Shown piece by piece: positions 10,805-62,773 of a stretch of DNA of 64,000 nt. A program made the translations under genes and the position numbers. The stretch's first letter is position 1. Each line of letters starts with the position of its first letter. The DNA is taken from contig CP136069.1 in assembly GCA_032622095.1 (NCBI GenBank), positions 32,710,194 to 32,774,193 on the forward strand. Reading direction: 5' to 3'. This DNA is from Siphonodentalium dalli. Lineage: Eukaryota; Mollusca; Scaphopoda; Gadilida; Siphonodentaliidae. The notes beneath the pieces were generated by a model, which was not told where the DNA came from, did no database searches, and saw nothing but the letters and a program-made list of their open reading frames with translations.

Positions 10805-11790
10805 ATGCCATGACGCTAAACCGCTAAGGAATGAAAATTTAAAAAAAGAGAGTTTCAAACTCAATTCTAGCAGTGCTATGCTGCTAAACTGCTAAGGAAT
10901 GAAAATATTAAAAAGGAGAGTTTCAAACTGAATTCTAGCAGTGCTATGCTGCTAAATGCTAACGAATGAACATATTAAAAAAGAGAGTTGAATGAAAATA
11001 TTAAAAACGAGAGTTTCAAACTGAATTCTAGCAGTGCTATGCTGCTAAACTGCTAAGGAATGAAAATATTAAAACAGAGTTTCAAACTGAATTCTAGCAG
11101 TGCTATGCTGCTAAATTGCTAAGGAATGAAAATATTAAAAAAGAGTTTCAAACTGAATTCTAGCAGTGCTCTGCTGCTAAACTGCTAAGGAATGAAAATA
11201 TTAAAAAGGAGAGTTTCAAACTGAATTCTAGCAGTGCTATGCTGCTAAATGCTAACGAATGAACATATTAAAAAAGAGAGTTGAATGAAAATATTAAAAA
11301 CGAGAGTTTCAAACTCAATACTAGCAGTGCTATGCTGCTAAACTGCTAAGGAATGAAAATATTAAAAAAGAGAGTTTCAAACTCAATACTAGCAATGCAC
11401 TGCTGCTAAACTGCTAAGGAATGAAAATATTAAAACAGAGTTTCAAACTCAATTCTAGCAGTGCTATGCTGCTAAACTGCTAAGGAATGAAAATATTAAA
11501 ACAGAGTTTCAAACTGAATTCTAGCAGTGCTATGCTGCTAAACTGCTAAGGAATGAAAATATTAAAAAAGAGAGTTTCAAACCTAATCCTAGCGGTGCTA
11601 TGCTGCTAAACTGCTGAGAAATAAAAATATTAAACAAGAGAGTTTCAAACTAAATTCTAGCGGTACTATGCTGCTAAACTGCTAGCGAATGAAAATATTA
11701 AAACAGAAAGTTTCAAACTGAATTCTAGCGGTGCTATGCTGCTAAACTGCTAAGCAACGAAAATATTTAAAAAAAAGAATTTCAAACTGT
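10805..11790 (+). repeat. Satellite A, left array (~68-bp unit)
   Basis: About 14 tandem copies of a ~68-bp unit with the core GAATTCTAGCAGTGCTATGC, TGCTAAACTGCTAAGGAATG and AAAATATTAAAAA. A short-unit variant containing CTAAATGCTAACGAATG recurs at about 10945 and 11250, so a ~296-bp higher-order block is duplicated. The unit carries an internal inverted motif (TAGCAG...CTGCTA). The same satellite lies in reverse orientation at 25336-27480. Confidence 0.9.
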
Positions 11791-24289: not shown

Positions 24290-25335
24290 ACATGCTGGCT
24301 TGATAGATATAGTTAGCTACATTGATAAATACTACTGCCCGTATAAACTTTGAGACCATCATGACCAGCTATAGTGACTAATGGAACTGGCTAGATAGAC
24401 TTACCACCATGGTTAGCTATGATGTCTACACTTACCAGCTTTTCTGTATAGATTATCCACCATAGCTAGCTACTTTGATCGATATTACTGTCCATATGTA
24501 CTGAATTACCACAATGACTAAATATAGTAACCAATGTAGCTCACTAAATAGACTTACCGCCCTGGTGAGCTATAGTGACTATTATTATTAGCCGGATATA
24601 TAGACCATCCGCCAGTGCTAGCTATATTGATTATTATTACTGCCTATTTAAACTGCACAACCACCATGATTAGCCATTATGACTACAGTAACTGACTAGA
24701 TAGACTTACCACCCTGGCTAGCTGCAGTGGCTACTATTACTTGTGGTATAGACTATCTTCCTATCTGGCTACTTTGATCTATATAACTGCCCATATATAC
24801 TGAATAACCACCATGACTAGCTATATGCATACACAATGACTGTTTATATGAATAACTAACTGTCTAGATAGACTTGACACAGAGGTTAGCTGACTACACT
24901 TACTAGCTTTCGGGAAAGATTATCCACTATAGCTAGATATGTTGATCAATAATACTGCCCGCATGTACTGATTAACCACAATGGCTAGCTATAGTGACTG
25001 ATTAACTAGCTAGATAGACTTACCACCCAGGTTAGCTATAGTGACTACATTTACTAGCTTACTGTGTAGAATATTATACACTTATAGTCACTTTTATCAA
25101 TATTGCTGCCCACATGTACTAAATAGCCATCACGACTAGCTACAGTGACTAATGTAACTGGCAATATAGACATACCACCCTGATTGGCTATAGTGACTAT
25201 TATCAATAGCTGTTTATAGTCTAGCCGTCATTGGTAGCTATATGCATCGAGATTACTGCCTAGATAAACTGAACAACCACCACGACCAACTATTGTGTCT
25301 AATGTAACTGGCTAGAGAGACATATCGCCATTGGT
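24290..25335. repeat. Satellite E (CTAGCTATAGTGAC), ~150-bp unit
   Basis: About seven degenerate units containing GGTTAGCTATAGTGACTA, GGCTAGATAGACTTACCACC, ATTACTGCCCATATGTACTG and AACCACCATGAC. It lies only on the right side, between satellites B and A. The corresponding place on the left (11791-11929) holds two copies of GTTACATAGTTACA instead. Confidence 0.8.
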
Positions 25336-27480
25336 TAGCAGTTTAGCAGCATAGCACCGGTAGAATTCCGTTTGAGACTCAATTTTTTAATATTTTCATT
25401 CCTTAGCAGTTTAGCAGAATAGCACCGCTAGAATTCCGTTTGAAACTCTCTTTTCCAATAATTCCATTCCTTAGCAGTTTAGCAGCATAGCACCGCTAGA
25501 ATTCAGTTTGAGACTCTATTTGTTAATATGTTCATTCCTTAGCAGTTTAGCAGCATAGCACTGCTAGAATTGAGTTTGAAACTCACTTTTTTAATATTTT
25601 CATTCCATAGCAGTTTAGCAGCATAGCACTGCTAGAATTGAGTTTGAAACTCTCCTTTTTATATTTTTATTCCATAGCAGTTTAGCAGCAGAGCACTGCG
25701 AGAATTGAGTTTGAAACTCTCTTTTTCAATATTATCATTCCTTAGCAGTTTAGCAGCATAGCACTGCTAGAATTGAGTTTGAAAGTCTCGTTTTTAATAT
25801 TTTTATTCCTTAGCAGTTTAGCAGCAGAGCACTGCTAGAATTCCGTTTGAAACTCTCTTTTCCAATAATTCCATTCCTTAGCAGTTTAGCAGCATAGCAC
25901 CGCTAGAATTCAGTTTGAGACTCTATTTGTTAATATGTTCATTCCTTAGCAGTTTAGCAGCATAGCACTGCTAGAATTGAGTTTGAAACTCACTTTTTTA
26001 ATATTTTCATTCCATAGCAGTTTAGCAGCATAGCACTGCTAGAATTGAGTTTGAAACTCTCCTTTTTATATTTTTATTCCATAGCAGTTTAGCAGCAGAG
26101 CACTGCGAGAATTGAGTTTGAAACTCTCTTTTTCAATATTATCATTCCTTAGCAGTTTAGCAGCATAGCACTGCTAGAATTGAGTTTGAAAGTCTGGTTT
26201 TTAATATTTTTATTCCTTAGCAGTTTAGCAGCAGAGCACTGCTAAAATTCAGTTTGAAACTCTCTTTTTTAATATTTTCATTCCTTAGCAGTTTAGCAGC
26301 AGTGCACTACTAGAATTCCGTTTGAAACTCTCTTTTTTAATATTATCATTCCTTAGCAGTTTAGCAGCATAGCACTGCTAGAATTGAGTTTGAAATTCTC
26401 TTTTTTAATATTCTTATTTCTTAGCAGTTTAGCAGCAGAGCCCTGCTAGAATTGATTTTGAAACTCTCTTTTTAAATATTTTCATACCTTAGCAGTTTAG
26501 CAGCATAGCACCGCTAGAATTCAGTTTGAAACTCTATTTTTTAATATTATCATTCCTTAGCAGTTTAGCAGCATAGCACTGCTAGAATTGAGTTTGAAAT
26601 TCTCTTTTTTAATATTTTTATTTTTAGCTTTTAGCAGCATAGCACCGCTAGAATTGAGTTTGAAACTCTCTTTTTTAATATTTTCATTCCTTAGCAGTTT
26701 AGCAGCATAGCACTGCTACAATTCAGTTTGAAACTCTCTTTTTTAATATTTTCATTCCTTAGCAGTTTAGCAGCATAGCACTGCTAGAATTCAGTTTGAA
26801 ACTCTCTTTTTTAATATTTTCATTCCTTAGCAGTTTAGCAGCATAGCACTGCTAGAATTCAGTTTGAAACTCTCTTTTTTAATATGTTCATTCGTTAGCA
26901 ATTTAGCAGCATAGCACCGCTAGAATTCAGTTTGAAACTCTCTTTTTTACCATTCCATTCATTAGCAGTTTAGCAGCATAGCACCGCTAGAATTCCGTTT
27001 GAGACTCTCTTTTTTAATATTTTCATTCTTTAGCAGTTTAGCATCATAGCACTGCTAGAATTGAGTTTGAAATTCTTTTTTAATATTTTCATTCCTTAGC
27101 AGTTTTGTAGCAGAGCACTACTAGAATTGAGTTTGAAACTATCTTTTTTAATATTTTCATTCCTTAGCAGTTTAGCAGCAGAGCACTACTAGAATTGAGT
27201 TTGAAACTCTCTTTTTTAATATTTTTATTCCTTTGCAGCTTAGCAGCAGAGCACTGCTAGAATTCAGTTTGAAACTCTCTTTTTTTAATATTTTCATTCC
27301 TTAGCAGTTTAGGAGCATAGCACTGCTAGGATTGAGTTTGAAACTCTCTTTTTTAATATTTTCATTCCTTAGCAGTTTAGCAGCATAGCACTGCTAGAAT
27401 TCAGTTTGAAACTCTCTTTTCTAATATTTTCATTCCTTAGCAGTTTAGTAGCATAGCACCGCTAGAATTCAGTTTGATAC
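25336..27480 (-). repeat. Satellite A, right array (~68-bp unit), inverted
   Basis: About 31 units, reverse complement of the left array, with the core CCTTAGCAGTTTAGCAGCAT, AGCACTGCTAGAATT and GAGTTTGAAACTCTC. A six-unit higher-order block of about 411 bp is duplicated: TTTTCCAATAATTCC occurs at about 25452 and 25860, and GAGACTCTATTTGTTAATAT at about 25508 and 25919. Toward the right end units become more uniform. Confidence 0.92.
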
Positions 27481-27514
27481 GCCCTTTTCTTGATTCATTT
27501 GCACTTAGCACTTA

Positions 27515-32597: not shown

Positions 32598-32806
32598 TTA
32601 GAAACGTTGACACAGGTGAGGTCTCGCGGCGCCGCCGGTTCCATCATACATCTGGTAGAGTGTTCCCGTATGGCTTATGGAGAGCGAGTTTACTGACGGT
32701 TCATTGGGTTGTCCAGGGTACCAGTCCAAGAACGGGACGTTTTCCCCGGCATGTGTGTATAATGTAGCGTTGTTGTAGGTCCTCTGTCCATCAATGTATA
32801 ATGGTG
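32598..32806 (-). CDS. Last exon of a C-type-lectin-like gene (A)
   Basis: The exon follows an acceptor (TTCCATTCCAG, AG at 32807-32808) in phase 1 and ends at a TAA stop. It encodes about 69 residues: PLYIDGQRTYNNATLY, then FLDWYPGQPNEPS, and closes with ARPHLCQRF. The W-x-x-G-Q-P-N block and the terminal R-P-x-L-C-Q resemble the second half of a C-type lectin-like domain. The usual W-x-D and several calcium ligands (E-P-N/W-N-D) are not clearly present, so sugar binding is uncertain. A paralogous exon with the same phase is at 59969-60174. Upstream exons were not identified to the right. Confidence 0.6.
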
Positions 32807-32809
32807 CTG

Positions 32810-33160
32810 GAATGGAAAGAAGACAATTAATATGTTTGTTATATTGTTTATTATACGCAATCAAATAGTATATAGTTGTTTTGCATTTAGATAAAAACTG
32901 ATCCGTCTAATGAGATATCGATGTGGAAAATATTAGACCGACATGGGTTAAATCAATGGGGCATATCTGGGTGATCGGCGACAGCAATTCACTCGTGATA
33001 AGCGTTGTTTGTTATTGAATAGATTTAGCACGGGTTTCACGATTGTTCTAAAGTGTGCTTTTAATCGATAATTTTGGACTCCTACTTTCAAAGAATTTTC
33101 ACGAATATGTTTATATAGCAAATCCATTAATGGTGCTCCTTTATTCATATTCTCAAGACC
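32810..33160. other. Intron or intergenic flank of lectin-like exon A
   Basis: AT-rich. A minus-strand frame over 32948-33382 has no recognised domain and overlaps the start of the dispersed repeat, so I do not call it a gene. Confidence 0.4.
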
Positions 33161-42071: not shown

Positions 42072-42349
42072 TGTGTTATCTTTTGGGTTATGGCAAAGAT
42101 AAGGTTATTTATATAAGGTTCTCACCTGTTTTACTCTCCTAGTCCTTCCAGCTATATACTTTCCTGGCGTGCTTTACCGATGGCGGTCCCGATTTAAGAG
42201 ATCGCACACTTCCTTTTTAGCTCCGCCCTTCTCTCTCCTCTTTCTCCCTTGTTACCCAATCACAGACCAGTTAGAGTTCAGATGCCAAAGGTTACAGCTA
42301 TTGGTTTCTTAAGGGCCAGAGGTCATAGTTCACATTGACATATTCTACA
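42072..42349 (-). repeat. 3' LTR of the young gypsy element
   Basis: 278 bp. In element orientation it starts TGTAGAATATG and ends AACACA, so it has canonical TG...CA ends. I see no difference from the other LTR at 54062-54339. Confidence 0.95.
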
Positions 42350-42504: not shown

Positions 42505-42600
42505 CAGCAGCTCAGCGTTCCTCGCTGTTTCCATATAGCCGCTCAGCGTTCCTCGCTGTTCCCATACAGCAGCTCAGCGTTCCTCGCTGTTCCCATGCCA
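42505..42600 (-). repeat. ~36-bp tandem repeat at the end of ORF4
   Basis: GCTCAGCGTTCCTCGCTGTT(T/C)CCATA occurs three times in tandem. It spans the C-terminal codons and stop of ORF4 and the start of the 3' untranslated stretch. Confidence 0.8.
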
Positions 42601-44624
42601 ATGACTTCTAGGGTTTGACCCCTTATTTCCGCCACAGCAGCCACTACTTCGCCTATATTCTTTGGGCTAGAAAATGCCCTGCTCCCTGCAAAGTACGGTC
42701 CATCCGTCTCTACCAGCAATCTTTCGTCCGGAACACTCCTCAAGGCCTCTTTCTGCTCTTCATCAAAATGTTTCACCAGCCCAGTAAACCCAAAATAACA
42801 ATTTGGCAACTCCATCCATTCCCTCAGTACTTCAGATCTCTGTGAGCAACAATGGAGATGCAGTGGTTGGTCGACAAGCCTCATTCTCCTAATGATGTTC
42901 AATGCAATCCTTGCCACTCGATCTCCATACCTGCTGGCTCCTCTAAGGTGTAAAATGATGGGCTTACTGGGCATGCTTAATTTCAGGAGGTCTATGAACA
43001 GCCGTTCTTGCAAGTCGAATGAGGATGGGTGACTAGTATCATCCAGGCCAATCTCTCCCAAAGCACACACCGAACGATGGTTCAGATAATCTCTAATAAG
43101 ATCCAGGGTGCGGCTTGAAGCCTGCCGATAGTTTTTCGGGTGAAACCCTATAGCTGTTCTCCACCTCTGACCAAGATCCACTGTCCAGGGGTAAGACTCC
43201 GGATCACAAAATACCGCAACCCCACCGATTACGCTACATGGGACCTTTCCGTCCGGAAATCCCTCAAAATATTGGTCCCAACAAAGGGTATCGGTGCCCT
43301 TGTTCGCTCGCTCCAGAATCCGATCCGGGTGGAAATGACTGTCATATAATTTGAGCAGTGGCTTTGGGGGAGGATCAGCGAGAGCGTCTTCACACTCCAC
43401 CCAGGCCTCCAAACTGTCATCCTCCAGTTCTATCTCCAAAGCTCCGCCCTTCTCGGTCTCCATGGGGCAGGTCTGGTGTTCTCCCAGGGACTCTAAGAAC
43501 ATTTCTTCCTCTGGTGGAGACTTTGGTGCTGACTCTATACTGCTATCCTGACTGTCTGTGGCCCCAGACTGGCTCAACCCGGTGAGGGGTCGAGTCAAAG
43601 TACCGGGCTCTTCAGGCACCCTCTCTTCGACTTGAGTCTTCCGATCCATCTCGGTTAGGGGACGGACCATAGAATAATCCTCCGTAAATAATCCTCCGTA
43701 AAATAGACTGCTATCCTGACTGTCTGTGGCCCCAGACTGGCTCAACCCGGTGAGGGGTCGAGTCAAAGTACTGGGCTCTTCAGGCACCCTCTCTTCGACT
43801 TGAGTCTCCCGATCCATCTCGGTGGATTTACATGATTGGATCTCGATAGGGTCAAACACCTTGTAGGATCTCAGGCGTACTGATGTGATTCTGATGAACT
43901 TGTTTCCCAGGTATATTTTTATTCCTTTTGATTTGTAAAATGGTTCTGTGAGATCTTTTTTGATTGGTACAGATAACAGACTTTTTTCGCAGGATATAGG
44001 AATATCCCTGGGGTAGATCGAACGTGTTTTATTTTTTTCGTCGATCAGATCTATCGACACAGTCTTTTGCTTCAAGCCAATAGATCCAAACTGGATGAAG
44101 ATCTCTGTGACAAACACTGGTCTGGAGACATGCACCGCTTGTTCCAATTCTTCGCATGTTAAGATGGGTGTCAATTCTAGTTTCTCAACTGGTGTGGAGT
44201 GAGCTTGGTAAGCCTTGATCTCCATTAGTTCCATTAATCCTCTCTTTGATTGTCTTAATGCAAATCTGTTTTTTTCATTAGTATTTACTACCCGTGTGAT
44301 GTCTTCTCTGGTCACCCCATGAAGAAATGGGTCCTTGAGCAAAATCTGTACCTCCATATACCCTTCCTTATTTATTTTTGTAGTATGACGGAGCAAATAC
44401 GACAAATGTCTCCCGATAGCTTCGTCATTTGGTTTCTTTCTACCTGGCCTATCAGTCCTAAAATGGTGGACCGCAACAGGGTCTTCGCAAACTACTTGTT
44501 GAAGCGTGTTCTGAGAATCACGGTGGGATTGATTTAAATCTAGTGACTCACTATGTCTTGATGGTGTCCAGTAATGTGATTTCCTTCTGTCCCTCTCATT
44601 CATTCTTAACTTCTTTGCTGACAT
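42543..44624 (-). CDS. ORF4: KptA/Tpt1 N-lobe fused to TatD-like nuclease
   Basis: A 693-residue ORF from ATG 44624, 43 nt after the integrase stop, in the position env occupies in other gypsy elements. Residues ~66-143 match the N-lobe of RNA 2'-phosphotransferase Tpt1/KptA: GRHLSYLLRH (R79, H80), a VTREDI helix and NTNEKNRFALR (R120). The expected C-lobe HGT/NAD site is not seen after residue 150. Residues ~280-390 contain a 56-residue-spaced duplicated segment. Residues ~424-690 form a TatD-family TIM-barrel hydrolase with all metal ligands: H430/H432 in DSHFHPD, GEIGLD (E~524), LHLRG (H559), HCC (H~590) and ETDGP (D641). TatD enzymes are Mg-dependent 3'-5' DNA/RNA nucleases. The link with retrotransposition is inferred. 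There is no signal peptide or membrane segment, so it is not an envelope protein. Confidence 0.88.
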   Translation of the reverse strand: MSAKKLRMNERDRRKSHYWTPSRHSESLDLNQSHRDSQNTLQQVVCEDPVAVHHFRTDRPGRKKPNDEAIGRHLSYLLRHTTKINKEGYMEVQILLKDPFLHGVTREDITRVVNTNEKNRFALRQSKRGLMELMEIKAYQAHSTPVEKLELTPILTCEELEQAVHVSRPVFVTEIFIQFGSIGLKQKTVSIDLIDEKNKTRSIYPRDIPISCEKSLLSVPIKKDLTEPFYKSKGIKIYLGNKFIRITSVRLRSYKVFDPIEIQSCKSTEMDRETQVEERVPEEPSTLTRPLTGLSQSGATDSQDSSLFYGGLFTEDYSMVRPLTEMDRKTQVEERVPEEPGTLTRPLTGLSQSGATDSQDSSIESAPKSPPEEEMFLESLGEHQTCPMETEKGGALEIELEDDSLEAWVECEDALADPPPKPLLKLYDSHFHPDRILERANKGTDTLCWDQYFEGFPDGKVPCSVIGGVAVFCDPESYPWTVDLGQRWRTAIGFHPKNYRQASSRTLDLIRDYLNHRSVCALGEIGLDDTSHPSSFDLQERLFIDLLKLSMPSKPIILHLRGASRYGDRVARIALNIIRRMRLVDQPLHLHCCSQRSEVLREWMELPNCYFGFTGLVKHFDEEQKEALRSVPDERLLVETDGPYFAGSRAFSSPKNIGEVVAAVAEIRGQTLEVIGMGTARNAELLYGNSEER
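43539..43825 (-). repeat. Internal duplication in ORF4 (~117 bp, 168-bp spacing)
   Basis: ACTGCTATCCTGACTGTCTG starts units at 43539 and 43707. Both continue through CTCAACCCGGTGAGGGGTCG and CACCCTCTCTTCGACTTGAG with two or three differences. It encodes the repeated acidic linker between the KptA-like and TatD-like domains, in frame. Confidence 0.9.
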
Positions 44625-44667: not shown

Positions 44668-46646
44668 TTAATTACACTCAGGACAGACGTATTGTTTTAA
44701 AGCTCGTCCTTGTTTTGCAGTAACCTTAACGCACTCCCCATGATACCATTCCCTGCAGCTGTTACATTGGATCATGAATTTGCCATCGTCTATTTTATTG
44801 CACCAGCAGTACAGAATATCTGCAGAGGAAATAGAGGCTCTTTCCTCCCCTCTTTTAATGACGGCCAGTAGCCATTTTGGCAGTTCCTCATCTCGACACA
44901 ACTTAAGCCGGTCATGATGGAGCGTTACTAAACCGGTCTTAAGTCTGACCTTAAAGGTGCTCTTAGAAAGTAACTGCATTATTACGCCCGGTCCCTTCCA
45001 GTTCACCGACAGTTTTTTATTTTTCCCCTTGATAACTGCTGTGTCGCGTAGGTAAACTATATCTCCCAACTTAAATGGTTTACAAAACATCCTGGCATCG
45101 TACTTTTTCTTCATTTGGACCTGAGACTGTTTTAGTTTATCTCTAGCAATCTCATGGGCGACCCTCATTGTATTTTCCAGTTCCAAAACAAACTCAGGTA
45201 TATTTTCCATGCTTTTATGAGGGAAATTTGTGGGGTACATGAGGTCGACGGGTTTGGTTACCTCTCTGCCCAACATCAAACGATTCGGAGTGAAACCGGT
45301 TTGCCGACAAACCGATGATCGCAAAGCTCCAGCTATTTGGGGTAGGAAAATGTCCCAACTTTTCTGTTTTTTGCCCACAAAGCAGCGCACCGCGTCCATT
45401 AAAGTTCTATTATATCTTTCGCATTGGCCATTAGCGGATGGTCTATATGGCGAGCATCGGAGCTTATCAATATTCAGTGCCTTACACATTTCCGCAAAAA
45501 GATCGCTCTCAAAGTTCCGCCCTTGGTCTGTCAAAATCCCAAATGGAAGACCAAAGCGAGTAAAGAATTCATTTATCGCTGCCCGTGCCGTAACAATAGC
45601 TGTTTGAGAAGGTAATGGAATACATTCCACCCATTTGGTGAAAGAGTCAACGATCATGAGGACATATTCATTTCCCTGTTCTGTCCTCGGTAATGGCCCC
45701 AAAAAGTCCATGTGCACGCGTTCCATAGGTGCCCCCATTTGAATTTGTTGAAGTGGAGCGCGAGGGTGCCGGCTTTGCTTTTTACAAACATTGCAAGTCT
45801 TGCAGGCTGCCACCCAGATCTCAACATCGTTATTTAGCCCAACCCAATAACCAATTTCCTTGACCCGCTCTTTCGTTCTACTCATTCCTTGGTGTCCAGA
45901 AAGTGGAACATTGTGGCATAACTCAAATATTTCTTTTCTCATATTAAATGGAACCACTATAACTTTTCGCCCAGTCTTGCGGGTTCTATACAAAACATTA
46001 TCATTATCAAGAACGCAAAGTTCCTTATTTAACCAATAATTTTTGGCAGCAGGGCTAGATATCAGTAAATCCCCTTCCGAAGGTTCCACAGTGTTGATTA
46101 GCCAATTCAAAATAAGTTTGAGATCTGGGTCAGCTTCTTGAGCTAGCTTAATATCGTCCGATGAGTGCTTTTGAAATTCCACTAACTGGACCGATGGTTT
46201 ATGTTCAGGACCTGACCCCTTTCCGGTTAGGGAAAGGGCCATAGGATCCTTGGTTTCTCTATTTATAGTCTCTCCACCCGGATCCCAGGTCTCGTGTAGG
46301 CCTAATGGAGTATTTGGGATCAAAGGCTGTGTAAGCAACTTATTGGGGACCTCTTTGTGAGGGTTAGTCAGGTTAATTTGAGGAGAATCCATGGTTGGTG
46401 TTACTCCAGCTGAGGCCCAAAATAAATTTAAATCAAAATTAGCGCCTTGCTCCCTTTTTCCAATTCGTGAAATGGCAGACAGAGGTATTATGTCATTCAC
46501 TTCTTCCTCAAATTTCTTTCTCTTCAACTCCACCCTTTTGCAGTAGGAACATCCCCCACAAGGCAGCGATTCAATCCCAGTTTCTGCTTTACAATATTCG
46601 TCCCATGGGATCCTACTCCGAGGCTGGGACAGTGTGTGAAGGATTC
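44668..46646 (-). CDS. pol: Integrase with C-terminal PHD finger (detached from pol here)
   Basis: Open from the stop at 46647-46649 to 44668. Numbering from 46533, about residues 205-250 form the H-H-C-C zinc domain (HNVPLSGHQG ... CKTCNVCKK). The catalytic core has D276 (MDFLGPL), D336 (ILTDQGRNF) and E372 (GQCERYNR), a D,D35E spacing. A GPY/F module follows (WKGPGVIM). Residues ~570-621 are a C4-H-C3 PHD finger: YCWCNKI, FMIQCNSC, REWYHGEC and YVCPEC, with aromatic residues placed as in methyl-lysine readers. It inserts cDNA into chromatin; the finger may guide targeting. No ATG precedes the domain, and the frame differs from RNase H because of the 626-bp insertion. Translation as part of Pol is therefore lost in this copy. 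Confidence 0.9.
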
Positions 46647-46962
46647 ATGTGAACGAGTGAAATGCGGATCGCATCCTGTTAAACATGGCTGGACTAACTG
46701 TACTGGAATGGCTGTAGGTGATACCTGTTTAGTCTCCTGTCAGAAAGGTTATTATCTGGAACATGGGTTGGATGAGGTCGTTTGTGAGGAGCACGGGAGG
46801 TGGAAGAGTGCCACGCCCGTCCAGTGTGTTCCTGTTGACTGCGGCATGCCTGAAATTCCCAACGCTCAAGCGGAATGTGAGCGGGGCACAACGTTTGGTG
46901 AGAAGTGCATGTTCAAATGCAAGGCGCCAGCTCTGTTAAAAGGAAAAGATACGAAGGTTGAA
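46619..46962 (+). pseudogene. Captured host sushi (CCP) cDNA, antisense to the element
   Basis: A plus-strand frame encodes one full and one partial complement-control (sushi) module. The first holds CERVKCGSHPV, GDTCLVSCQKGYYLEHG and GRWKSATPVQCVPV. The second starts DCGMPEIPNA and has FGEKCMFKCKAP. The cysteine spacing and the G-x-W before the last cysteine are typical. There is no intron between modules, suggesting capture from an mRNA. It lies inside the LTR element in the opposite orientation and joins pol-derived sequence at a TGTAAAGC junction (46963), where a sushi codon pair and pol coincide. Which host gene supplied it is unknown. Confidence 0.85.
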
Positions 46963-49900
46963 TGTAAAGCAGAAACTGGGATTGAACCGCCGCCCCGCGG
47001 GGGACGCTCCCACTGCAAAAGGGCGGAGCCGAAGAGAAAGAAATCTGAGGAAGAAGCGAATGACACAACACCTCTGCCTGCCATTCCAATTCGTGAAATG
47101 GCAGACAGAGGCATTATGTCATTCACCTCCTCCTCAAACCCCCCCCTCCCCAACTCCACCCCCCCGCAGCAGGAACATCCCCCACCAGGCAGCGATTCAA
47201 TCCCAGTTTCTGCTTTACAATATTCGTCCCATGGGATCCTACTCAGCGCATCTGCATTCGAATGTTTTTCACCCTTCCGAAATACTATTTGCATGTTAAA
47301 TTGACTTAATTCGAGGAGCCATCTAGCCAATTGGCCTTGGGGCTCCTTGAAATTCATCAACCACGTAAGACTGCTGTGGTCTGTACGGAGCGTAAAAGGT
47401 TTGCCCAATAAATAATGCTTGTATTGGCGAGTAAAACATACGACAGCTAAAAGTTCCTTACGTGTGGTGCAATAATTCCGCTGTTCCTTTGATAAAGCTA
47501 GACTTCCATAGCAAATAACTTTTTCTTGCCCATTTTGTATCTGAATTAATTCAGCCCCCATACACGTTTGTGAACAATCGGTATCTAGCAGATATGGGTC
47601 GGTTTTATTCGGAAGGGCCAATACTGGTGGGCTCGTTAGAAGTTTCCGAAGGTTTTGCCAGGCAGATTCTTCAGAATCTCCCCATGAAAAAGGTTTTTTC
47701 CTTATAGAATCGTATAAAGGTTTGGCAAGTTCTGCAAAACCTTTAACAAAGTTACGGTGATAGTTAACCAACCCCATAAACCTCTCCACTTCCTTCGCCG
47801 AACGTGGACGTGGCCAATCTTTGACTACTTGAGTTGCACTATCCCCCATTTCTAGCCCGTTTGCACTTATGACTCTTCCAAGGAATTGCACTTCTTTTTG
47901 GAACAGAAGACATTTCCGGGGTTTTAGTTTTAAGCCATATTCTCGAAACCTCAATAAAACTTCTTTTAAATTGTTTATGTGCGAATCTACTCCCTGCCCC
48001 ATAACCAAACAATCGTCTACAAATGCCAAAGTGGTCTTCCAGAGGAGCCCGCGCAACACGAGATTCATTGCCCGACAGTAACTAGCCACCGCGCCCGTCA
48101 GTCCAAAACTTAAACGTTCAAACTCAAAAATCCCGTATTTAGTAATAAACGCAGTCTTAGGTTGGTCTTCCTCTTTGATACGGAGCTGGTAATACGCCTG
48201 GTTGCAGTCCAATTTTGACGCCCATTCGTTGTCAGCTAGGGCCGCTAGACAATCATCGACTAGCGGTAGGGGAAATTGATCTTTTTTGGTTACCGCGTTC
48301 AATTTTCGATAATCTAAGCACCACCGTACCGTATGGTCAGGTTTACGGATAAGAACCGGTACTGAACACCACTCAGACATAGAAGGTTTAATTATTCCGG
48401 CGCCCAAAAGTTTCTTCAAGTGCGACTCCTCCTCCCCCGCAAAGGCTTCCGGGGTCCTACGCATTCTTAATTTAACGGGTGTTGCATCACCAGTAGGAAT
48501 GGTGTGCTCTATAGCCGTAAAATGCCCAAGATCATACTCGTGGGTAGCAAAAATGTCTTGGAATTCTATAAATAAGTCTTTTAATTTCAATTGTTCTGAA
48601 TAATTCAAGTGTACTATTGACCTTTCAAAAAGTTGGGATAAATGTGGGGGCAATGTTGAGATATTTCCATTTTCCACCACAGTTTCATTGACTCGTGGGT
48701 GATTATCGCAAAACCTTTCCGAGGTCTGTGAACTAATCTCAGAAACATGAGAGATTTGACGGTTTTTCCTCAGCGTTACCCAAGACCCGGTAGGATTCAA
48801 AATGCAACAAAGTATTTCAGTGGTCCCTTTACTGTGTAACGAACACCCCACAATTATCTTATCCCCTATAACCGGTTCTACTATAAAATCGTGGGCCATG
48901 GAATTTACTCGACAACTGACCAGCCTACCTGTACGAGGGGGAATCACACATTTATTGGAAATCATTACCGGTTGAATCCTTTCTTCCGGTTTTTTATCAC
49001 TCATCCTTCGGTTAGAAAACAAATGGGAACCTATGTGTACGTCACTCTCCCTCCCGGGGCCTGCCCCAACTATCATACTCTCGCCAAGTTGGTCCTCAGG
49101 CAGTAAAACCGGGAGATCAAAACTTGCAGCCATATTCTCACCAAGTTGGTCCTCCGGCAGCAAGGCCGGGAGATCAAAACTTGCTGTCATATTCTCACCA
49201 AGTTGGTCCTCCGGCGGCAAGGCCGGGAGATCAAAACTGGCAGTCCTACTCTCACCAAGTTGGTCCTCCGGCGGCGAAGTCGGAAGCTCAAAACTTGCAG
49301 TCATACTCTCGCCAAGTTGGTCCTCCGGCGGCAAGGCCGGAAGATCAAAACTCTCAGTCATACTTTTACCAAAAAGATGAGGACACTTCCTATTGACTGT
49401 ACCAATTCCCACCAGTCCAAATGTACACAAGGGACTACCACAAGATATAGGAATGAGTTCGTTATTGAGGTGGAGTTCATCATTTAAGAGATCTAAGGTC
49501 ATACAATGTTTTTTCATGAAATCATACCCTAAGAGCATTTGATCATAAATGGGTGCTACATAGAAATTCTCCTGGAAGGTTTGGGTTCCTAATTTAATCT
49601 CTACTGGCCCTACATATAACCCTCCCATACCAGAATTCCTGGCGGCTAACTTCAAGTTCACATGATTTATAATTGGCGGTGTTATAGTAAAACCTTCAAA
49701 AATCTTATCGGAAATTATGGAGACTTCTGCGGCTGAATCTATTACCGATTCCACTTCCATACCATTTAGAAATACATTCACCATCGCCAACGGTCTTTGA
49801 ACCTTATGAATCCCAACTTCCGGATCGGCTGGTAAAGAGTTGCTGAGAATGTTAGGTAGAGTTTTTCCCTCTAAATCTCCCAGCAACCCTTGACAGGCCT

Positions 49901-50261
49901 GGTCCCTCAAAAGTGTTTGGGCTGTGATAAAGTTTGAGACTGCCATCGAGTCCTTTAAACCATTGAGTACCAAACCCTCTCGCGCCGTAAACTCTGATGT
50001 TAAATCAATCAAAATTCCCTCCGATACTGAAATAACCTCGGGTATTGTATCACTTGAGAAATTTATCAAATCGTCAGGTATTGATTTAACTATTGAATCC
50101 ATTAAGTTGTCGGGTATTGGGTTAACTTTATTGGATACCCGGCTGATATTATTGAGAGGAAATGGCTCCCCTTTAACGGACAATTCATTTACATGTACAT
50201 CTGTGTAATCAATATTTACATTTATTAGCTCACTCTTACCAACTTCCTTGAGACCATCCAC
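46866..50261 (-). CDS. pol: Pol: protease, reverse transcriptase, RNase H (C-terminus broken)
   Basis: The frame is open from about 50357, overlapping gag by ~80 nt in the -1 frame; there is no early ATG, so frameshifting is likely. Numbering from 50261: retropepsin with VESVIDSAAEVSII (D175) and LLGYDFM (~245); a linker with five 20-residue repeats (~295-395); RT with KLDCNQAYYQL and the active site AFVDDCLVMG (FVDD at 747-750, F for the usual Y); connection (FMGLVNYHRNFV); RNase H from TDCSQT (~892) to the DALSR segment near 1005. After ~1010 the frame runs through the duplicated pol segment into antisense insert sequence and stops at 46866, so the last ~120 residues are foreign and integrase is cut off. 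Confidence 0.92.
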   Translation of the reverse strand: MDGLKEVGKSELINVNIDYTDVHVNELSVKGEPFPLNNISRVSNKVNPIPDNLMDSIVKSIPDDLINFSSDTIPEVISVSEGILIDLTSEFTAREGLVLNGLKDSMAVSNFITAQTLLRDQACQGLLGDLEGKTLPNILSNSLPADPEVGIHKVQRPLAMVNVFLNGMEVESVIDSAAEVSIISDKIFEGFTITPPIINHVNLKLAARNSGMGGLYVGPVEIKLGTQTFQENFYVAPIYDQMLLGYDFMKKHCMTLDLLNDELHLNNELIPISCGSPLCTFGLVGIGTVNRKCPHLFGKSMTESFDLPALPPEDQLGESMTASFELPTSPPEDQLGESRTASFDLPALPPEDQLGENMTASFDLPALLPEDQLGENMAASFDLPVLLPEDQLGESMIVGAGPGRESDVHIGSHLFSNRRMSDKKPEERIQPVMISNKCVIPPRTGRLVSCRVNSMAHDFIVEPVIGDKIIVGCSLHSKGTTEILCCILNPTGSWVTLRKNRQISHVSEISSQTSERFCDNHPRVNETVVENGNISTLPPHLSQLFERSIVHLNYSEQLKLKDLFIEFQDIFATHEYDLGHFTAIEHTIPTGDATPVKLRMRRTPEAFAGEEESHLKKLLGAGIIKPSMSEWCSVPVLIRKPDHTVRWCLDYRKLNAVTKKDQFPLPLVDDCLAALADNEWASKLDCNQAYYQLRIKEEDQPKTAFITKYGIFEFERLSFGLTGAVASYCRAMNLVLRGLLWKTTLAFVDDCLVMGQGVDSHINNLKEVLLRFREYGLKLKPRKCLLFQKEVQFLGRVISANGLEMGDSATQVVKDWPRPRSAKEVERFMGLVNYHRNFVKGFAELAKPLYDSIRKKPFSWGDSEESAWQNLRKLLTSPPVLALPNKTDPYLLDTDCSQTCMGAELIQIQNGQEKVICYGSLALSKEQRNYCTTRKELLAVVCFTRQYKHYLLGKPFTLRTDHSSLTWLMNFKEPQGQLARWLLELSQFNMQIVFRKGEKHSNADALSRIPWDEYCKAETGIESLPGGGCSCCGGVELGRGGFEEEVNDIMPLSAISRIGMAGRGVVSFASSSDFFLFGSALLQWERPPRGGGSIPVSALHSTFVSFPFNRAGALHLNMHFSPNVVPRSHSA
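46963..47232. repeat. Hairpin of duplicated pol sequence with A-to-G-edited arms
   Basis: 46963-47085 is an inverted copy and 47086-47232 a same-orientation copy of the pol segment whose third copy lies at 46460-46618. They turn over a short loop near 47086-47095. Relative to the third copy, the left arm has 16 T-to-C and the right arm 16 T-to-C (plus-strand reading), plus one transversion at 47186. At each changed site the other arm keeps the third copy's state, so polarity is clear. On the element (minus) strand all 32 are A-to-G. Edits fall at 46987-47077 and 47112-47170; the loop is untouched. Confidence 0.9.
49080..49379 (-). repeat. Five 60-bp tandem repeats inside pol
   Basis: CACCAAGTTGGTCCTCCGGC begins each 60-bp unit. 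The encoded 20-residue unit is of the form SFDLPALPPEDQLGE(S/N)MTA. Length is a multiple of three, so the frame is kept. It lies between protease and RT and looks like a flexible linker that expanded. Confidence 0.92.
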
Positions 50262-50275
50262 AAATGGAGCCGGAA

Positions 50276-53200
50276 TCAGGCCTCTTGACCCGACTCTCTG
50301 AAGTTTGACATGCCCATTTTGTTTCCGGTTTCCGCATTTTCCGGAGGTGCTGAACGATTAAAGGGCTTGCCACTGGGACAATTTCGAGCGTAATGGCCCC
50401 TACCCCCACAAGAAAAACAGGTAAACCTCCCTCCATTTTCCTTACTAAACCGGTTAGGCCTCTGATCATTTCCGCGCCCCCTTCCACGACCTACTCCGGG
50501 TTGAAGGTTAGATATTTGACGCATCAAAACTCCGTAGCCATCCTCAGTATTGGAGGCTTGCGACTTAACTTCTACTCTCGATACTCCCGGAGAATATTCC
50601 CTTTCAAATGCCCCAACACTTCGTACTTCCCTTTTTCTTCCCAGGGCTTGAGTGGCTTGAATGTATTTCACCTTTTTTACTGCATCTTCTATGTTTGGTA
50701 GTTGGAGCCCGTTAGTATAATCCCCAGAATTCCGATCGTAAAGCCCTTGACAAAATCTGGCCACAGCTTGTCCCATTATAATATTTTCCGGTGACCCTTT
50801 CCATACTTTAGAAGCCTTCATAAGAACCCGATCTGCCCACTCCTGTAGGAGTTCATCTCTATTTTGGGTCATACTCAAGAATTGGGCGCTTAGAGTTTCG
50901 GGCGGTTGTTGGGCCCCATAATGAACCACCAATTTGTCCATCACGGCTTGGAAACCCAAATCCGGATGATTTTCGGAAAGAAAAGCGTAGTAGTCAAGAA
51001 CCTTTCCCTCCAAGCTTAAACATAAGGCCGTTAATTTCTCAACTGCAGTCAATTGATGTAAAACAGCGAAGCTTTCAAACTTAGCCCGAAAACATTCAAA
51101 GCTATTGCGGCCATCAAATTTCAATCCATGAGGGAGATTGGGAAACTTATGTCTTCGATCCCTTTCCTGAACATGGTCCCGATCATTCCCATTAAAGTGA
51201 GGCGGAGGATCTCTCCAGTCATTGTTCCCATGTCGCCCATGTGCATAGCGTTCACCTTTATCATTTCGACGGACAAGGAATTCATCGCGGTCTCTTAAAT
51301 CGTACTCGGGTCGAGGATTAGGCTTATCCCTACACCCTTGAGGGTGATATAACATTTCCGGGCTAACCTCCCGACTGTGTCGGCGCATTTCATTTCTGTT
51401 TGAACATTCACGACGAATCGGTCTGGGGCTTTTATCCCCATGCTGGTGCGGAGAATAGCATCTGTCCGCGCGCTCCCGTCGGTATGGTTCTAAACTACTA
51501 GCACTAGTCTGTTCAGCCGACAAATCCGGATAAAAACCATGCCTATGCGCGGAATGACGTTTGTCCCTACTCTGTTGGCGCATATCGGGTCTATAATCAC
51601 CGTGTCCACTTGGGGAACCCTGTCTATCATCGCGTTCTATGTGGCGCGGTTCTGGAACACCAGTAGAGTAATGCCCCCTGCGCGGAGAATCCCGGCGACA
51701 TTCTATCTCGCCTCGATGGGATTCCGGACTCAAATATTCTCGTCTGCCCGACGAATATGGTCGGTTGTCAGGTTCTAAACGGCGTGATTCTGACTGTATA
51801 GAGTGTCGTCTGTGCGGTGAACCACGACTGACGGCTAATTTGTTTGGTCGCGATTCAGGACTCTCTTTACGTTTTAGTGGAGAATGCTGCGAGTCAACAT
51901 ATTTGATACGTCGCGGCGATACAAGTCTGTCTGCGCGCTCCATGCTTGGTTCCGAGTGGCGATGTCGCCTGCGTGGTGAATGAACCTTGTGTCGCGATTG
52001 GTGATTATCTCTACTTCGTTGCGTAGAATAATGCGTGTCAACATACTCTGTATGCCGCGGAGAAGCAAGTTTGTCTATGCGCGACTGTAGACGACTCATG
52101 GTTCGACTATGTGAGGCGTCTTGTGAAACTACCTTGCGTTTGGCTACCACATTCTTAAACGGAGAATGGTCACTCCCCCCTTCTGAAAGTGAGAGTTTCC
52201 GGTTATCATGCCTGCCTGCAACTGTAATATCATGCAGCCTATTCTCCACCCCCAAAAGATCAGGAATATCCCTACTCCTGTGAGAAGGCTTAGACAGGCC
52301 CCGTATAGGCCTAACCGATTTATCCACATCGCGGTTTCGTAGATGCTGGGTCGGAGAACATGCATGAGGACTGACCATTTTAAGAGTCAACTTCGGATGT
52401 TGAGGTGAGTTTGGTGAATTTGTACAGACTCGTTGAAACTCCGGTGTGGCCCCCTGAGATGTACGACGAGGGTCCACATATAATTGCATTTGTGATAATT
52501 GGTGACTTAAATAATTGACATACTTATGTTGATGCTCTAACCGCTCAATTGTGTCATCCCTGTTAAAAGTCGAACCATGATTGTAGGACGCTAACCGACT
52601 ATGAGAGGCCGTTGATACATTCGACCCTGACCGGCTAAGGTCCGAGTCCGAAAAGGAATCGCGGGGGCTCCCCTTACATGGAGTCGGTGCCTTCGCCAAT
52701 AAATTAGAGGATTTGATATCAAAATTGATCAGCGAACCTGTCAGCGATGTTTTAGCAGTGGAGGTTAATTTATGTAAACCCGATCGGTCCGGTTTCGGAC
52801 TGGAAGAAGCAGGAATGGAACCCTCAAAACTGATAGCAGGGGGCTGAGATGTGGAAATTTCTCCCTGTCGTTGAATGTCAGCATCGCGTTCAACTGACTG
52901 GTCCATCCCCAGGTCCGAAACCGAAGATTTTGATTTGCCCTCATCATCGGTACCTAACCGCGCTCTCACCCCATGTAATTCCCTCTCCCTACCCTTATGA
53001 AAATGGGTATGCTCCTGTGGAAAAGGGTCGGTTGCCGGAGGGGTAGGCGGTCCCTCAAAATCTCCCCGAACAGCCGGATTGCGATCAAACTCCTCAACCA
53101 ACTTCTCGAGACGTTCAAGCGTTTCTTGGTCGCACAAGCGGGGGGCGCTGGACTCCATACCCGCAAAAATACGAAAATCGATAAGCGGCAACAATTTATC

Positions 53201-53350
53201 GATCGAAGTTGCTAAAGGCAACTTGTGCAAAATTTCCGGGAGTAAATTCCCATATACATGCCTGTTATACAAAAGTATATCCGCACGTTTTCGCCCGATG
53301 CCCGGCAAAGAAAAAAGCTCTCGATACGAGCAAAAATTTATGGCTAACAT
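50276..53350 (-). CDS. gag: Gag with N-terminal HhH motif, RS-like region and CCHC knuckle
   Basis: A 1024-residue ORF from ATG 53350, long for a gypsy Gag. Residues ~8-40 (SYRELFSLPGIGRKRADILL) read as a helix-hairpin-helix of the ComEA type, a nucleic-acid-binding motif not usual in Gag. Residues ~300-720 are rich in Arg, Ser, His and Pro (many SPRR, RHS and SRD phrases). Residues ~735-880 are a retrotransposon capsid domain (LKFDGRNSFECFRAKFESF ... LQEWADRVL). CFSCGGRGHYARNC (~977-990) is the zinc knuckle. It ends TGA at 50276-50278, overlapping the -1 pol frame. No canonical X-XXY-YYZ slippery heptamer was found in the overlap. Confidence 0.9.
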   Translation of the reverse strand: MLAINFCSYRELFSLPGIGRKRADILLYNRHVYGNLLPEILHKLPLATSIDKLLPLIDFRIFAGMESSAPRLCDQETLERLEKLVEEFDRNPAVRGDFEGPPTPPATDPFPQEHTHFHKGRERELHGVRARLGTDDEGKSKSSVSDLGMDQSVERDADIQRQGEISTSQPPAISFEGSIPASSSPKPDRSGLHKLTSTAKTSLTGSLINFDIKSSNLLAKAPTPCKGSPRDSFSDSDLSRSGSNVSTASHSRLASYNHGSTFNRDDTIERLEHQHKYVNYLSHQLSQMQLYVDPRRTSQGATPEFQRVCTNSPNSPQHPKLTLKMVSPHACSPTQHLRNRDVDKSVRPIRGLSKPSHRSRDIPDLLGVENRLHDITVAGRHDNRKLSLSEGGSDHSPFKNVVAKRKVVSQDASHSRTMSRLQSRIDKLASPRHTEYVDTHYSTQRSRDNHQSRHKVHSPRRRHRHSEPSMERADRLVSPRRIKYVDSQHSPLKRKESPESRPNKLAVSRGSPHRRHSIQSESRRLEPDNRPYSSGRREYLSPESHRGEIECRRDSPRRGHYSTGVPEPRHIERDDRQGSPSGHGDYRPDMRQQSRDKRHSAHRHGFYPDLSAEQTSASSLEPYRRERADRCYSPHQHGDKSPRPIRRECSNRNEMRRHSREVSPEMLYHPQGCRDKPNPRPEYDLRDRDEFLVRRNDKGERYAHGRHGNNDWRDPPPHFNGNDRDHVQERDRRHKFPNLPHGLKFDGRNSFECFRAKFESFAVLHQLTAVEKLTALCLSLEGKVLDYYAFLSENHPDLGFQAVMDKLVVHYGAQQPPETLSAQFLSMTQNRDELLQEWADRVLMKASKVWKGSPENIIMGQAVARFCQGLYDRNSGDYTNGLQLPNIEDAVKKVKYIQATQALGRKREVRSVGAFEREYSPGVSRVEVKSQASNTEDGYGVLMRQISNLQPGVGRGRGRGNDQRPNRFSKENGGRFTCFSCGGRGHYARNCPSGKPFNRSAPPENAETGNKMGMSNFRESGQEA

Positions 53351-54061: not shown

Positions 54062-54339
54062 TGTGTTATCTTTTGGGTTATGGCAAAGATAAGGTTATTT
54101 ATATAAGGTTCTCACCTGTTTTACTCTCCTAGTCCTTCCAGCTATATACTTTCCTGGCGTGCTTTACCGATGGCGGTCCCGATTTAAGAGATCGCACACT
54201 TCCTTTTTAGCTCCGCCCTTCTCTCTCCTCTTTCTCCCTTGTTACCCAATCACAGACCAGTTAGAGTTCAGATGCCAAAGGTTACAGCTATTGGTTTCTT
54301 AAGGGCCAGAGGTCATAGTTCACATTGACATATTCTACA
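54062..54339 (-). promoter_or_regulatory. 5' LTR and promoter of the young gypsy element
   Basis: 278 bp, apparently identical to 42072-42349. In element orientation it has a CCAAT motif (54290-54294), a second, inverted CCAAT box (54246-54250), a GGGCGG GC-box (about 54212-54218) and a TATA box TTATATAAATAA (about 54095-54106). Transcription should start some 25-30 nt after the TATA box, which would leave a very short R-U5. Start site and polyadenylation site are not determined. Confidence 0.85.
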
Positions 54340-59968: not shown

Positions 59969-60174
59969 TCAGTATATTTGACAAAGGTATGGCCTCCTCC
60001 ATGTTCCATCGTGATTCGTCAAGTAATATTTCACATCAGCTCCTGTTTGAATTTTAATCTCCGTTGCATCTGGAATGTTCTGTGGAAAACCGGGTGCCCA
60101 CAATCCTGATGGAACCTCTTCGCCACCGGAGTAGAAAGTCCCGACAGCTCGCTCCCCGGCTACATACAGGTCAC
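59969..60174 (-). CDS. Last exon of a C-type-lectin-like gene (B)
   Basis: The exon follows an acceptor (TTCACACACAG, AG at 60175-60176), phase 1, and ends TGA at 59969. It encodes DLYVAGERAVGTFYSGGEE, then GLWAPGFPQNIPDA, and ends TWRRPYLCQIY. The (G)-W/L-W-x-x-G-x-P block and terminal R-P-Y-L-C-Q match exon A at 32598-32806 position for position, with the same intron phase and length. The two are therefore paralogues. It resembles the C-terminal half of a C-type-lectin-like domain, but the calcium-binding W-N-D is replaced (LTNHDG), so carbohydrate binding is doubtful. Partner exons are not seen within the window. Confidence 0.62.
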
Positions 60175-60176
60175 CT

Positions 60177-62773
60177 GTGTGTGAACAAATACAACACAAT
60201 AAATAAATGGAGTCTTTGTAGTATTTGTTTGGTAAATACCACTGCTTGAGTGATATTAGACTCTTTAGCCTCGCACCTTTGCTTGTTTATCCGTTGTCCC
60301 TCCCCAAAGACACAAAGGTCACTCCTCTGGGTGATTATGGTCGGCCTCTTGATGCCAGTCACTGTGGGAGAACTACTTGGTTACTCGATATCTGCCAGTT
60401 GGTGAAGGGAATTCTTCATTTCCACATCATTTTCCCAAAATAATACTCATAGAAATTCGTCGTAACTTTGGTGGCAGATGATAATGCAAACGCACAAACA
60501 CATAATGTGCATTTATGAGGAACTGTCATAAAACATATGATTGTGACTGTTACGAGGATTATGCTAGATTATTTTAAAAACAATTAGATACCTTATTTGT
60601 TCGGATAACTCCAGTAGTAGTTAGTTTTATATAACATGCTGACCAAAGTTGCCAATTGGAGGTTCGTGCAATACACCAGTCCCTATACATCTTGGATAAT
60701 CCCTCGACTGACAAGTTTGGTCAGAAAGTTAAGCAAATAGGTTTGGATATAAATGAGGTACCAGTTGTTTGAAAAATAGTATAGCATATGCTCGATGCTG
60801 CAAAAATACTATGTAATATAGAATTATCACAGTTTATTACCATTTACTTATTTGCGATCGCCTCGGTCATTTATAATGCGTGGTACTCATCAACTCGTTA
60901 CAACGTGATTCCCACTGTAATAACATTCACTGGGGGATGCTAACAAAAACAATTAACTATAACTCGCATGTTTTGAGAAAACAAGCTATAAACAATATTG
61001 TGAAGTATCTGGTTCTCTATTGAGGGCTCCGATTCTTTGCGTCTTAATCGAGGTGGCTCTCTATAGATGTGCTGAGTAATTTTTACTCACATAAATAGCC
61101 AACATGTAACAACAAAATTATGCTCAAACACTTATTGGGCTAAAACAATACAGAGGTAGATGTTCATATATGACCTAAATACAGTTATTTGTCATAGTCA
61201 TAACCAAACTCCATACAGCGCCCTCTACGTTATCACTGTGAAATAGCACTGCCATAAGGACATTGTTAGCAACAATTTCTTACGTGTTTTTAATTCTTAT
61301 GTTTTAGTGTTACAATTGTCTATGTCTGGCCCAGTTCATATTGTTCTGATCAATACCGAAACAATACCAAAATAATTAGCATTATTTCAACTTTTGGTGG
61401 TCAAAATAAGGTAATTAGTGAATAAATATAGTTCCGACGATTTACTGCGCTTAAAATAGACTTCCTTCCCGAACTTGTGTTTTTACAAAATGGCGACATT
61501 CGATTCCATGAATTTTATATCTGCGTATCAACATTCTAAAGATTTAATCGGAGTTAAACATGATTTGAATTCTCGACTCGAATGGAATCGGATTAGACCG
61601 CTTCATCAAAAGCATGTTTGGTTTTAGTGGGTCTTTAAACACATAAATCTGATCAATGACAATGTTTATTCAATTGTCATGAGCTGCAAATTTCTCGAGA
61701 ATGTGTAGAAAATTATATTTCATTTTCTTGTCACTGGACTGGAGACAAGTCACAGCGTGACAGTGGAGCGCCGGTAAATTAATAAATCGAATCTGTCAAC
61801 AATAGACTAATGGATTATTTCTATGGTATGTACATGTATTTACTATTTATTTTATACAATTCCTCGAGTCGAAATATTATAGTATGCCGTTGGCTTTGTG
61901 GATATTCTTTAGTGTGCTTAAGCGCAATAAGAATACTTAATATTGTGCTTATAAAGCGCAATAAGAGATTCCTGAATTCCTTAAGCACAATTAAACATTT
62001 CCTTATTGTGCTTAAGCGCAATTGGAGCTTTCCGTATTGCGCTTTCATTATTGCGCTTTTAAAAGCTCAATTATTTATAAAATGTCAATCTGGCTTCCCA
62101 TAGATCACACGCAGTCAATCATTCAATGTATTTTTTTACATTTTGAATTACATGTACAATTAAAAAAAATTGTTATAATAAATTGTATTGTAACTATTGT
62201 TATATTGTCCTTATTCCCCATAAAGCATGTGCAGTTGTGCACATGTTTTATGATAGACTAGTAAGTACTATTAATACTCGTAGTACTGTAGTTAATACCA
62301 CACTACTGTCAAAATTCTAACATGTTTAGTTACAATATCATAATGTTAATTGTTATTACTATTTGATGTGTACATGTACTGTACTTTACATCAGTCATCA
62401 ATTCAAAAACTGATCTTTTTATATGTTGAATTTAGTTTAAACTTAAACAAATAAGCCTGGTTGAATATCTACCATATGGTGGGTCGTTCCCACCCTTAAG
62501 CTGTTGATGTCATTGAGACATTCAGTGTTATTTTGCTATTTTGCATGCGAAGAGGTAGACTGCTTGAGACCTCGTGGTAGATACATTCACTCCAGGCATT
62601 CAACTTTTTGGATCTAAACTTTGACAATTTAGCCAAACACACTATTTTCATATCAGTGATGATTTATGACACATCATTTCTTACTGTAGTGTATGAGGAC
62701 CGGATACAGGTAGCTTAAATTAAAGACTTTAAAAAGCCCGACGAAGATCGTTTGTGATGATATAAATATAAAT
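60177..62773. other. No recognisable gene
   Basis: AT-rich. At 61905-62075 the phrase (T)TAAGCGCAATAAG and its inverse CTTATTGTGCTTAA alternate several times, forming short local inverted repeats. Everything else looks unique and non-coding to me. Confidence 0.5.

Follow-up and report, generated by a model that had tools for sequence, protein, structure and literature searches.

The Tpt1/KptA (TRPT1) proteins, NAD+-dependent RNA 2'-phosphotransferases, consist of two lobes with an essential Arg-His-Arg-Arg tetrad, according to the description in PMC6333775; they remove 2'-phosphates, and relatives are described as capping 5'-phosphate RNA and DNA with ADP-ribose (PMC6333775, PMC8053099). As presented in PMC8053099, the substrates of metazoan Tpt1 are an open question, and so is the retention of Tpt1 in animals and bacteria despite a tRNA splicing that proceeds without a 2'-phosphate. 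The TatD nucleases (YcfH, TATDN1-3) include the E. coli TatD, characterized as a 3'-5' exonuclease on single-stranded DNA and RNA, and TATDN2, reported to act on R-loops (PMC12709183); TATDN2 has also been placed, together with a pogo-type transposon gene, among the non-Hox genes in the giant squid Hox cluster (PMC6962438). The third related system is the Ty3/gypsy (Metaviridae-type) group of long terminal repeat (LTR) retrotransposons with an accessory 3' open reading frame (ORF). The element described here lies on the minus strand within a 64,000-bp stretch (the window) of the genome of the scaphopod mollusc Siphonodentalium dalli (contig CP136069.1), and it shares with this group the LTRs, a CCHC gag, a reverse transcriptase (RT)-RNase H ahead of the integrase and an extra ORF before the 3' LTR. 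It differs in that the extra ORF, designated ORF4, encodes a two-enzyme protein with Tpt1/KptA and TatD domains and without an env or chromodomain Pfam match, and in the PHD finger at the C-terminal end of its integrase. No such element was found described in the literature searched by titles and the beginnings of abstracts; a description in the repeat databases, which lay outside this search, is possible.

In the window copy, ORF4 is open on the minus strand from ATG to stop (693 codons, 42543-44624), as the first-pass annotation of the window, made from the letters alone, had read it; it starts 43 nt past the integrase stop and ends 193 nt short of the 3' LTR. It is composed as follows:

42543..44624, minus strand: ORF4, 693 aa, consisting of the KptA RNA lobe, a segment of the host protein PAPP-A, a repeat linker and TatD
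44097..44426, minus strand: KptA/Tpt1 domain (PTS_2-RNA), residues 67-176, the final residues of which extend into the PAPP-A segment
43824..44128, minus strand: PAPP-A segment with two exons joined, standing where the sister ORF4 has about 1076 bp, with the frame kept
43536..43823, minus strand: linker with two near-identical 120-bp repeats at a spacing of 168 bp
42561..43229, minus strand: TatD_DNase domain (Pfam), residues 466-688

The pairing of Tpt1/KptA with TatD in a gypsy-type accessory ORF, proposed in that annotation, was recovered with both Pfam models. The PTS_2-RNA profile was matched at positions 3-116 of 177 (E 1.6e-16), in agreement with the earlier reading that the KptA part of this copy lacks its NAD lobe; three tetrad residues (R79, H80 and R120) were present in the remaining RNA lobe, while the fourth, corresponding to R205 in the sister copy L033, was absent. 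The TatD_DNase match covered profile positions 29-253 of 253, reaching the profile end (E 5.4e-36), and the motifs DSHFH (at residue 428, upstream of the Pfam match), GEIGLD, LHLRG, HLHC and ETDGP were all found, particular residues of which presumably bind the metal. The closest solved chain by sequence was YcfH (1yix), not TATDN1 or TATDN3, with TATDN2 outside the comparison. The window ORF4 is, therefore, probably still able to make a TatD nuclease, whose activity is possible, while an active Tpt1 is unlikely because of the absent NAD lobe. In contrast to their known relatives, both enzymes are encoded by a retrotransposon, the Tpt1 in fusion with a nuclease and the TatD as the C-terminal portion of the accessory protein. 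A chance ORF and a host exon were also considered for ORF4 and ruled out by the Pfam domains and by the sister matches across the genome.

A search of the same assembly (2.227 Gb in 9 contigs) with ORF4, in which 64 of the 597 first-look candidates were scored, gave at least 78 matches. Residues 169-266 were covered by none of them except the window's own, the close sister matches spanning about residues 1-167 and about 268-693. An unbroken ORF4 was present in 6 of 17 close copies, with 950 codons in L031-L034 and 894 codons in L035 and L036, which are shorter in the linker. Both sister ORF4s scanned with Pfam (L033 and L035) contained the full PTS_2-RNA profile (3-177), including the NAD lobe, and TatD. 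In L033, the domain occupied residues 67-238 (profile 3-177 of 177, E 8.6e-45), matched the tRNA 2'-phosphotransferase 1 structure 7yw2 over both lobes (E 4.3e-33) and had the complete tetrad, the positions of which (R79, H80, R120 and R205) were mapped by motif. The window copy has lost the NAD lobe, which both of these sisters have, and the suggestion of the first-pass annotation that the KptA part serves by design only for binding of RNA ends is not supported. The region between the two enzymes was also conserved and matched no Pfam model at E 0.1; in L033 it has a C-x2-C-x9-H-x4-H pattern, the spacing of which differs in further families, with LWEP and an NSxAC motif behind it. From these domains, the usual product of the gene is predicted to carry a complete Tpt1/KptA, a TatD nuclease and, between the two, a zinc-finger-like region. 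A different arrangement was seen in the sister copy L006, where the integrase frame is joined straight to the ORF4 linker without KptA.

The accessory ORF was found right behind the integrase in four families, with both KptA and TatD in F1, F2 and F3 and TatD only in F4. The representative of F2 (L048) has 1492 codons with KptA at 669-844 and TatD at 1232-1490, that of F3 (L050) 1371 codons with KptA at 153-331 and TatD at 1098-1370, and that of F4 (L053) 921 codons. The matched integrase stretches were 41-56% identical across the families: 41% for F4, with most of the integrase and the PHD finger covered, 52% for F2 over the C-terminal 124 residues only and 44% for F3 over the C-terminal 80 residues only, the PHD finger being included in both. 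The TatD positions HxH, E, H, H and D were kept in the representatives of F1-F4, with the exception of L035. In F5 (L047), TatD lies in a frame that extends past the sequence piece analyzed. The presence of ORF4 in sister copies and in further families disposes of two possibilities that the first-pass annotation had named against itself, namely that other copies would lack ORF4 or that it would be a one-off host capture.

The genome was also searched with the KptA model (PF01885; 150 of 154 candidates scored), which resulted in at least 83 matches, at least 22 of which span profile positions 8-177 or more and lie in open frames no shorter than 800 aa. For 18 of the 24 KptA frames checked, an ORF4/TatD match was located on the same strand within 6 kb downstream, 29 of the 78 ORF4 matches being used. 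Outside this genome, a protein of 1059 aa on an unrelated 8041-bp ENA contig (P0003) combined a complete PTS_2-RNA (203-378) with Integrase_H2C2 and rve in a single frame and had no TatD match. Like the window family, it has KptA within a retroelement-type polyprotein, but the KptA is located N-terminal to the integrase in one frame and the protein is 38% identical over 20% of the query, indicating a second way in which KptA has become part of a retroelement-type protein. Neither a protein search with the window ORF4 as a query nor scans of viral contigs with the window ORF4, P0003, the sister ORF4 and the alignment A1 produced a match or relatives, respectively. Three predicted proteins of Mytilus (P0008, P0010 and P0012) have a retropepsin-type domain together with KptA; they were not used as support, since P0008 and P0010, except in the protease part, look by eye like other KptA proteins of molluscs and may represent fused gene models.

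The ratio of nonsynonymous to synonymous differences (pN/pS) was calculated against L033 for 14 sister copies as a crude, uncorrected measure, with several broken copies included and small counts in the young ones. It was below one in all 14 copies for both enzymes, i.e., 0.00-0.41 for KptA and 0.00-0.58 for TatD, which, together with the position behind the integrase in four families, supports the reading of ORF4 as a conserved accessory gene. The ranges were 0.28-0.46 for the middle region in 12 computable sisters, where the differences in L045 and L046 are so many that misalignment is likely, and 0.47-2.08 for the linker in 11 computable sisters. Eight further pairs gave 0.06-0.31 for KptA, 0.17-0.92 for TatD and 0.41-1.01 for the linker, the highest TatD value (0.92) belonging to L038 vs L041, both of which are broken. 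As a rule, KptA was the most and the linker the least constrained part of ORF4.

On balance, ORF4 is probably a conserved Ty3/gypsy-type accessory gene for nucleic-acid end processing, of which the window contains a rearranged copy; this is our best explanation as a whole and we hold it with moderate confidence. The family protein would most likely serve reverse transcription. A 2'-phosphate would stall reverse transcriptase, and the Tpt1 part might either remove such phosphates or cap 5'-phosphates with ADP-ribose on the element RNA or cDNA, the TatD part might trim damaged 3' ends or the RNA in hybrids, and the zinc-finger-like region might bind nucleic acids. Several observations weigh against this explanation, starting with the crude character of the pN/pS values. 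According to PMC8053099, metazoan tRNA processing leaves no 2'-phosphate junction. Eleven of the 17 close sister ORF4 copies are broken or partial. In the open, 894-codon ORF4 of L035, ETDGP is changed to ETYGP, and the TatD motif positions of F5 read HFR and GDIGID, so that some copies may lack nuclease activity. No KptA was matched by Pfam in F4. Finally, six of the 24 KptA frames checked (two of 1346 aa and one each of 1308, 1291, 866 and 651 aa) had no TatD match downstream, which tells little because only part of the candidates in the ORF4 search were scored.

The same broken copies, and the acquisition of host mRNA by this lineage that is evident in the window copy (see below), would also suit a passenger, i.e., captured host genes carried along without function. 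We consider this highly improbable, since the position and the domain order are kept across divergent families, the KptA pN/pS is low and a separate fusion of KptA with an integrase exists in P0003. A counter-defence or host-directed role, in which the protein would act on host nucleic acids or undo a defence mark such as an RNA phosphate, ADP-ribose or R-loops, has more in its favor: TRPT1-type enzymes and TATDN2 are described as acting on RNA ends and R-loops, ORF4 occupies the env/accessory gene position and the linker differs among the copies. However, neither KptA nor TatD shows fast evolution and there is no known host target, and we regard this role as unlikely. We regard as still less likely that KptA is mainly an ADP-ribosyl capper of 5'-phosphate ends, shielding the cleaved element RNA or cDNA from exonucleases, with the 2'-phosphate removal being secondary. 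Human, prokaryotic and fungal TRPT1 enzymes are reported to ADP-ribosylate 5'-phosphate single-stranded RNA and DNA in vitro (PMC8053099), and the retention of all four tetrad residues in L033 is compatible with such activity, but the two reactions are inseparable by sequence.

The loss of the NAD lobe in the window copy was explained by the segment between KptA and the linker. The first-pass annotation was right about KptA and TatD and overlooked this third segment, whose residues 184-269 match pappalysin-1 (PAPP-A; E 1e-10) and which aligns without stops with PAPP-A residues 1033-1116 (chain numbering). Its 305 bp (43824-44128) were identical to the host sequence at 304 positions, with 204/205 bases in one exon and 90/90 and 10/10 in two adjoining host loci, and a host intron of about 1.19 kb was absent. 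About 1076 bp of ORF4 were lost and 305 bp gained, both numbers being 2 modulo 3, hence the frame continues. The junctions read GCATG / TCTCCAG and AAATCC / ACCGAG and may have originated by template switching. The NAD lobe is, thus, missing because a segment of host PAPP-A mRNA took its place. The frame kept at both junctions and the stop-free alignment with PAPP-A could suggest that the chimeric ORF4 is a new functional protein in which the PAPP-A segment adds a binding ability. We give this little credence: a single copy was found, the 304/305 identity to the host exons leaves little time for selection, the cut removed the NAD lobe, and the frame would be kept by chance in about one third of cases, minus those with stops.

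A second PAPP-A piece was located in pol, in antisense orientation and within a rearranged insert between RNase H and integrase, with the following parts:

46458..47244, minus strand: pol rearrangement, in the order copy A, arm B, antisense PAPP-A, copy C
47244-47084, sense: copy A
47088-46963, inverted: arm B
46614..46962, plus strand: host PAPP-A CCP1-2 coding sequence with exons joined, antisense to the element (PAPP-A E 1.3e-12)
46618-46458, sense: copy C

Copies A and C are 626 bp apart. Pol is broken in this copy, since the 626-bp spacing is not divisible by three and the RT frame meets a stop within the insert; the element is, therefore, not the intact unit assumed earlier, and from the first interpretation as a whole the domain pair, the loss of the NAD lobe and ORF4 as a family gene stand, while the intact element and the binding-only KptA do not. 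The insert was absent at all 11 sister junctions analyzed, one of which (L067) was matched only from 47271, in a locally rearranged copy. Compared with the host up to the end of the second exon only, the antisense stretch was identical to two host exons on C9 at 134/135 and 196/199 bases, the last mismatch being at the exon end, and lacked the host intron of about 2.35 kb. One PAPP-A piece ends at C9:21406710 and the other starts at about C9:21406722, which reads as the same exon. Only about a dozen bases separate the two pieces in the host exon, while in the element they are oppositely oriented and 2.5 kb apart. The shared exon and the near-contiguous ends indicate that they derive from neighboring stretches of one kind of spliced mRNA. 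A search of the assembly with the CCP sequence (all 42 candidates scored) gave eight matches and no second rearranged copy. Three of the matches were the window and the two host exons, and the other five, with 32-43% identity, all fell in a single frame of 2818 aa on C3. A plus-strand sushi frame at 46636-47304 was tried as a host exon in place and rejected, as the exons in it are already spliced together and the host gene itself occupies another site on C9.

The foldback beside the PAPP-A piece (46963-47219) had 34 differences, 33 of which were A-to-G on the sense strand. Compared with the sister copy L059, arm A (47219-47094) had 17 differences with 16 A-to-G, and arm B, read on the element sense strand, had 17, all A-to-G, with no differences at all in copy C (319 nt) and in the 181 nt preceding arm A. 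Within the arms (126 nt each), 33 of 72 adenines were changed vs 1 of 180 other bases, and the A-to-G changes were restricted to the double-stranded stretch, as would be typical of ADAR. ADAR avoids 5'-G neighbors, and this preference appeared as a trend only, with such neighbors at 6 of 33 changed and 13 of 39 unchanged adenines (p = 0.18), which is a further point on the negative side. The scar is as expected if a sense RNA had folded, undergone adenosine-to-inosine (A-to-I) editing and then been reverse transcribed. Such an edited scar in DNA implies that the rearranged element would have existed as RNA before its present insertion.

Assembly errors are known to arise at foldbacks, and among the copies examined only the window copy has the rearrangement, so the rearranged pol and both PAPP-A pieces might be ascribed to an assembly artefact. 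This is scarcely credible, since joining of genomic reads cannot make spliced exon junctions, 33 of 34 changes being A-to-G and limited to the arms is unlike sequencing noise, and the PAPP-A pieces that almost adjoin in the host exon are far apart in the element.

The rearranged copy probably formed when the reverse transcriptase moved onto spliced host PAPP-A mRNA and then back, one piece taking the place of the NAD lobe and the zinc-finger region in frame and the adjoining piece entering pol antisense beside the foldback. The foldback RNA would then have been A-to-I edited and copied into DNA, and the rearranged copy, once formed, would have transposed one or more times with the help of pol provided in trans. 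A more far-reaching proposal can be offered only tentatively: that an animal Ty3/gypsy-type lineage encodes an RNA-repair pair, a complete Tpt1 and a TatD, clearing 2'-phosphates and damaged ends before and during reverse transcription, that retroelements recruited KptA on more than one occasion, that a natural substrate for an animal Tpt1 is thereby found, and that the window copy unites, in a single molecule, a two-piece host mRNA capture, editing of double-stranded RNA and re-insertion. The retention of an apparently complete Tpt1 beside a nuclease in a mobile element points to a substrate coming from reverse transcription or RNA damage, and the Tpt1 substrate question becomes testable with purified domains. 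The window copy is also a clear record of the pickup of host mRNA by an LTR element and of the return of edited RNA to DNA.

The remaining parts of the element are the following:

42072..42349, minus strand: 3' LTR, 278 bp, no difference from 54062-54339, ACAC at the outer flank
44668..46533, minus strand: integrase ORF with a C-terminal PHD finger (Pfam Integrase_H2C2, rve, PHD)
46866..50261, minus strand: protease-RT-RNase H ORF, the tail of which enters the rearranged insert; protease matches under the curated cut-offs
50276..53350, minus strand: gag ORF, 1024 aa, with a CCHC knuckle; PNMA and HhH matches under the curated cut-offs
54062..54339, minus strand: 5' LTR, 278 bp, no difference from 42072-42349, ACAC at the outer flank

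The two identical LTRs with ACAC at both outer flanks, as left by a target-site duplication, and the Pfam domain order, RVT_1 and RT_RNaseH followed by Integrase_H2C2 and rve, indicate, by structure and domain order, a Ty3/gypsy-type LTR retrotransposon. The 5' LTR is adjoined by TGGCGACGAGGAT, a primer-binding-site-like string which we take to be the complement of the tRNA-Ser(GCT) 3' end. The PHD finger of the integrase (44674-44808) was also present in F4 and in the matched integrase ends of F2 and F3. The helix-hairpin-helix match in gag is weak and located at the N terminus (53279-53341), and about five copies of an in-frame 57-bp repeat lie between the protease and RT (49073-49372). Elsewhere in the window, the same 68-bp satellite forms two arrays in opposite orientations (10776-11788 and 25335-27490), and two minus-strand frames (32601-32906 and 59972-60286) have, judged by eye only, the look of C-type-lectin-type exons.

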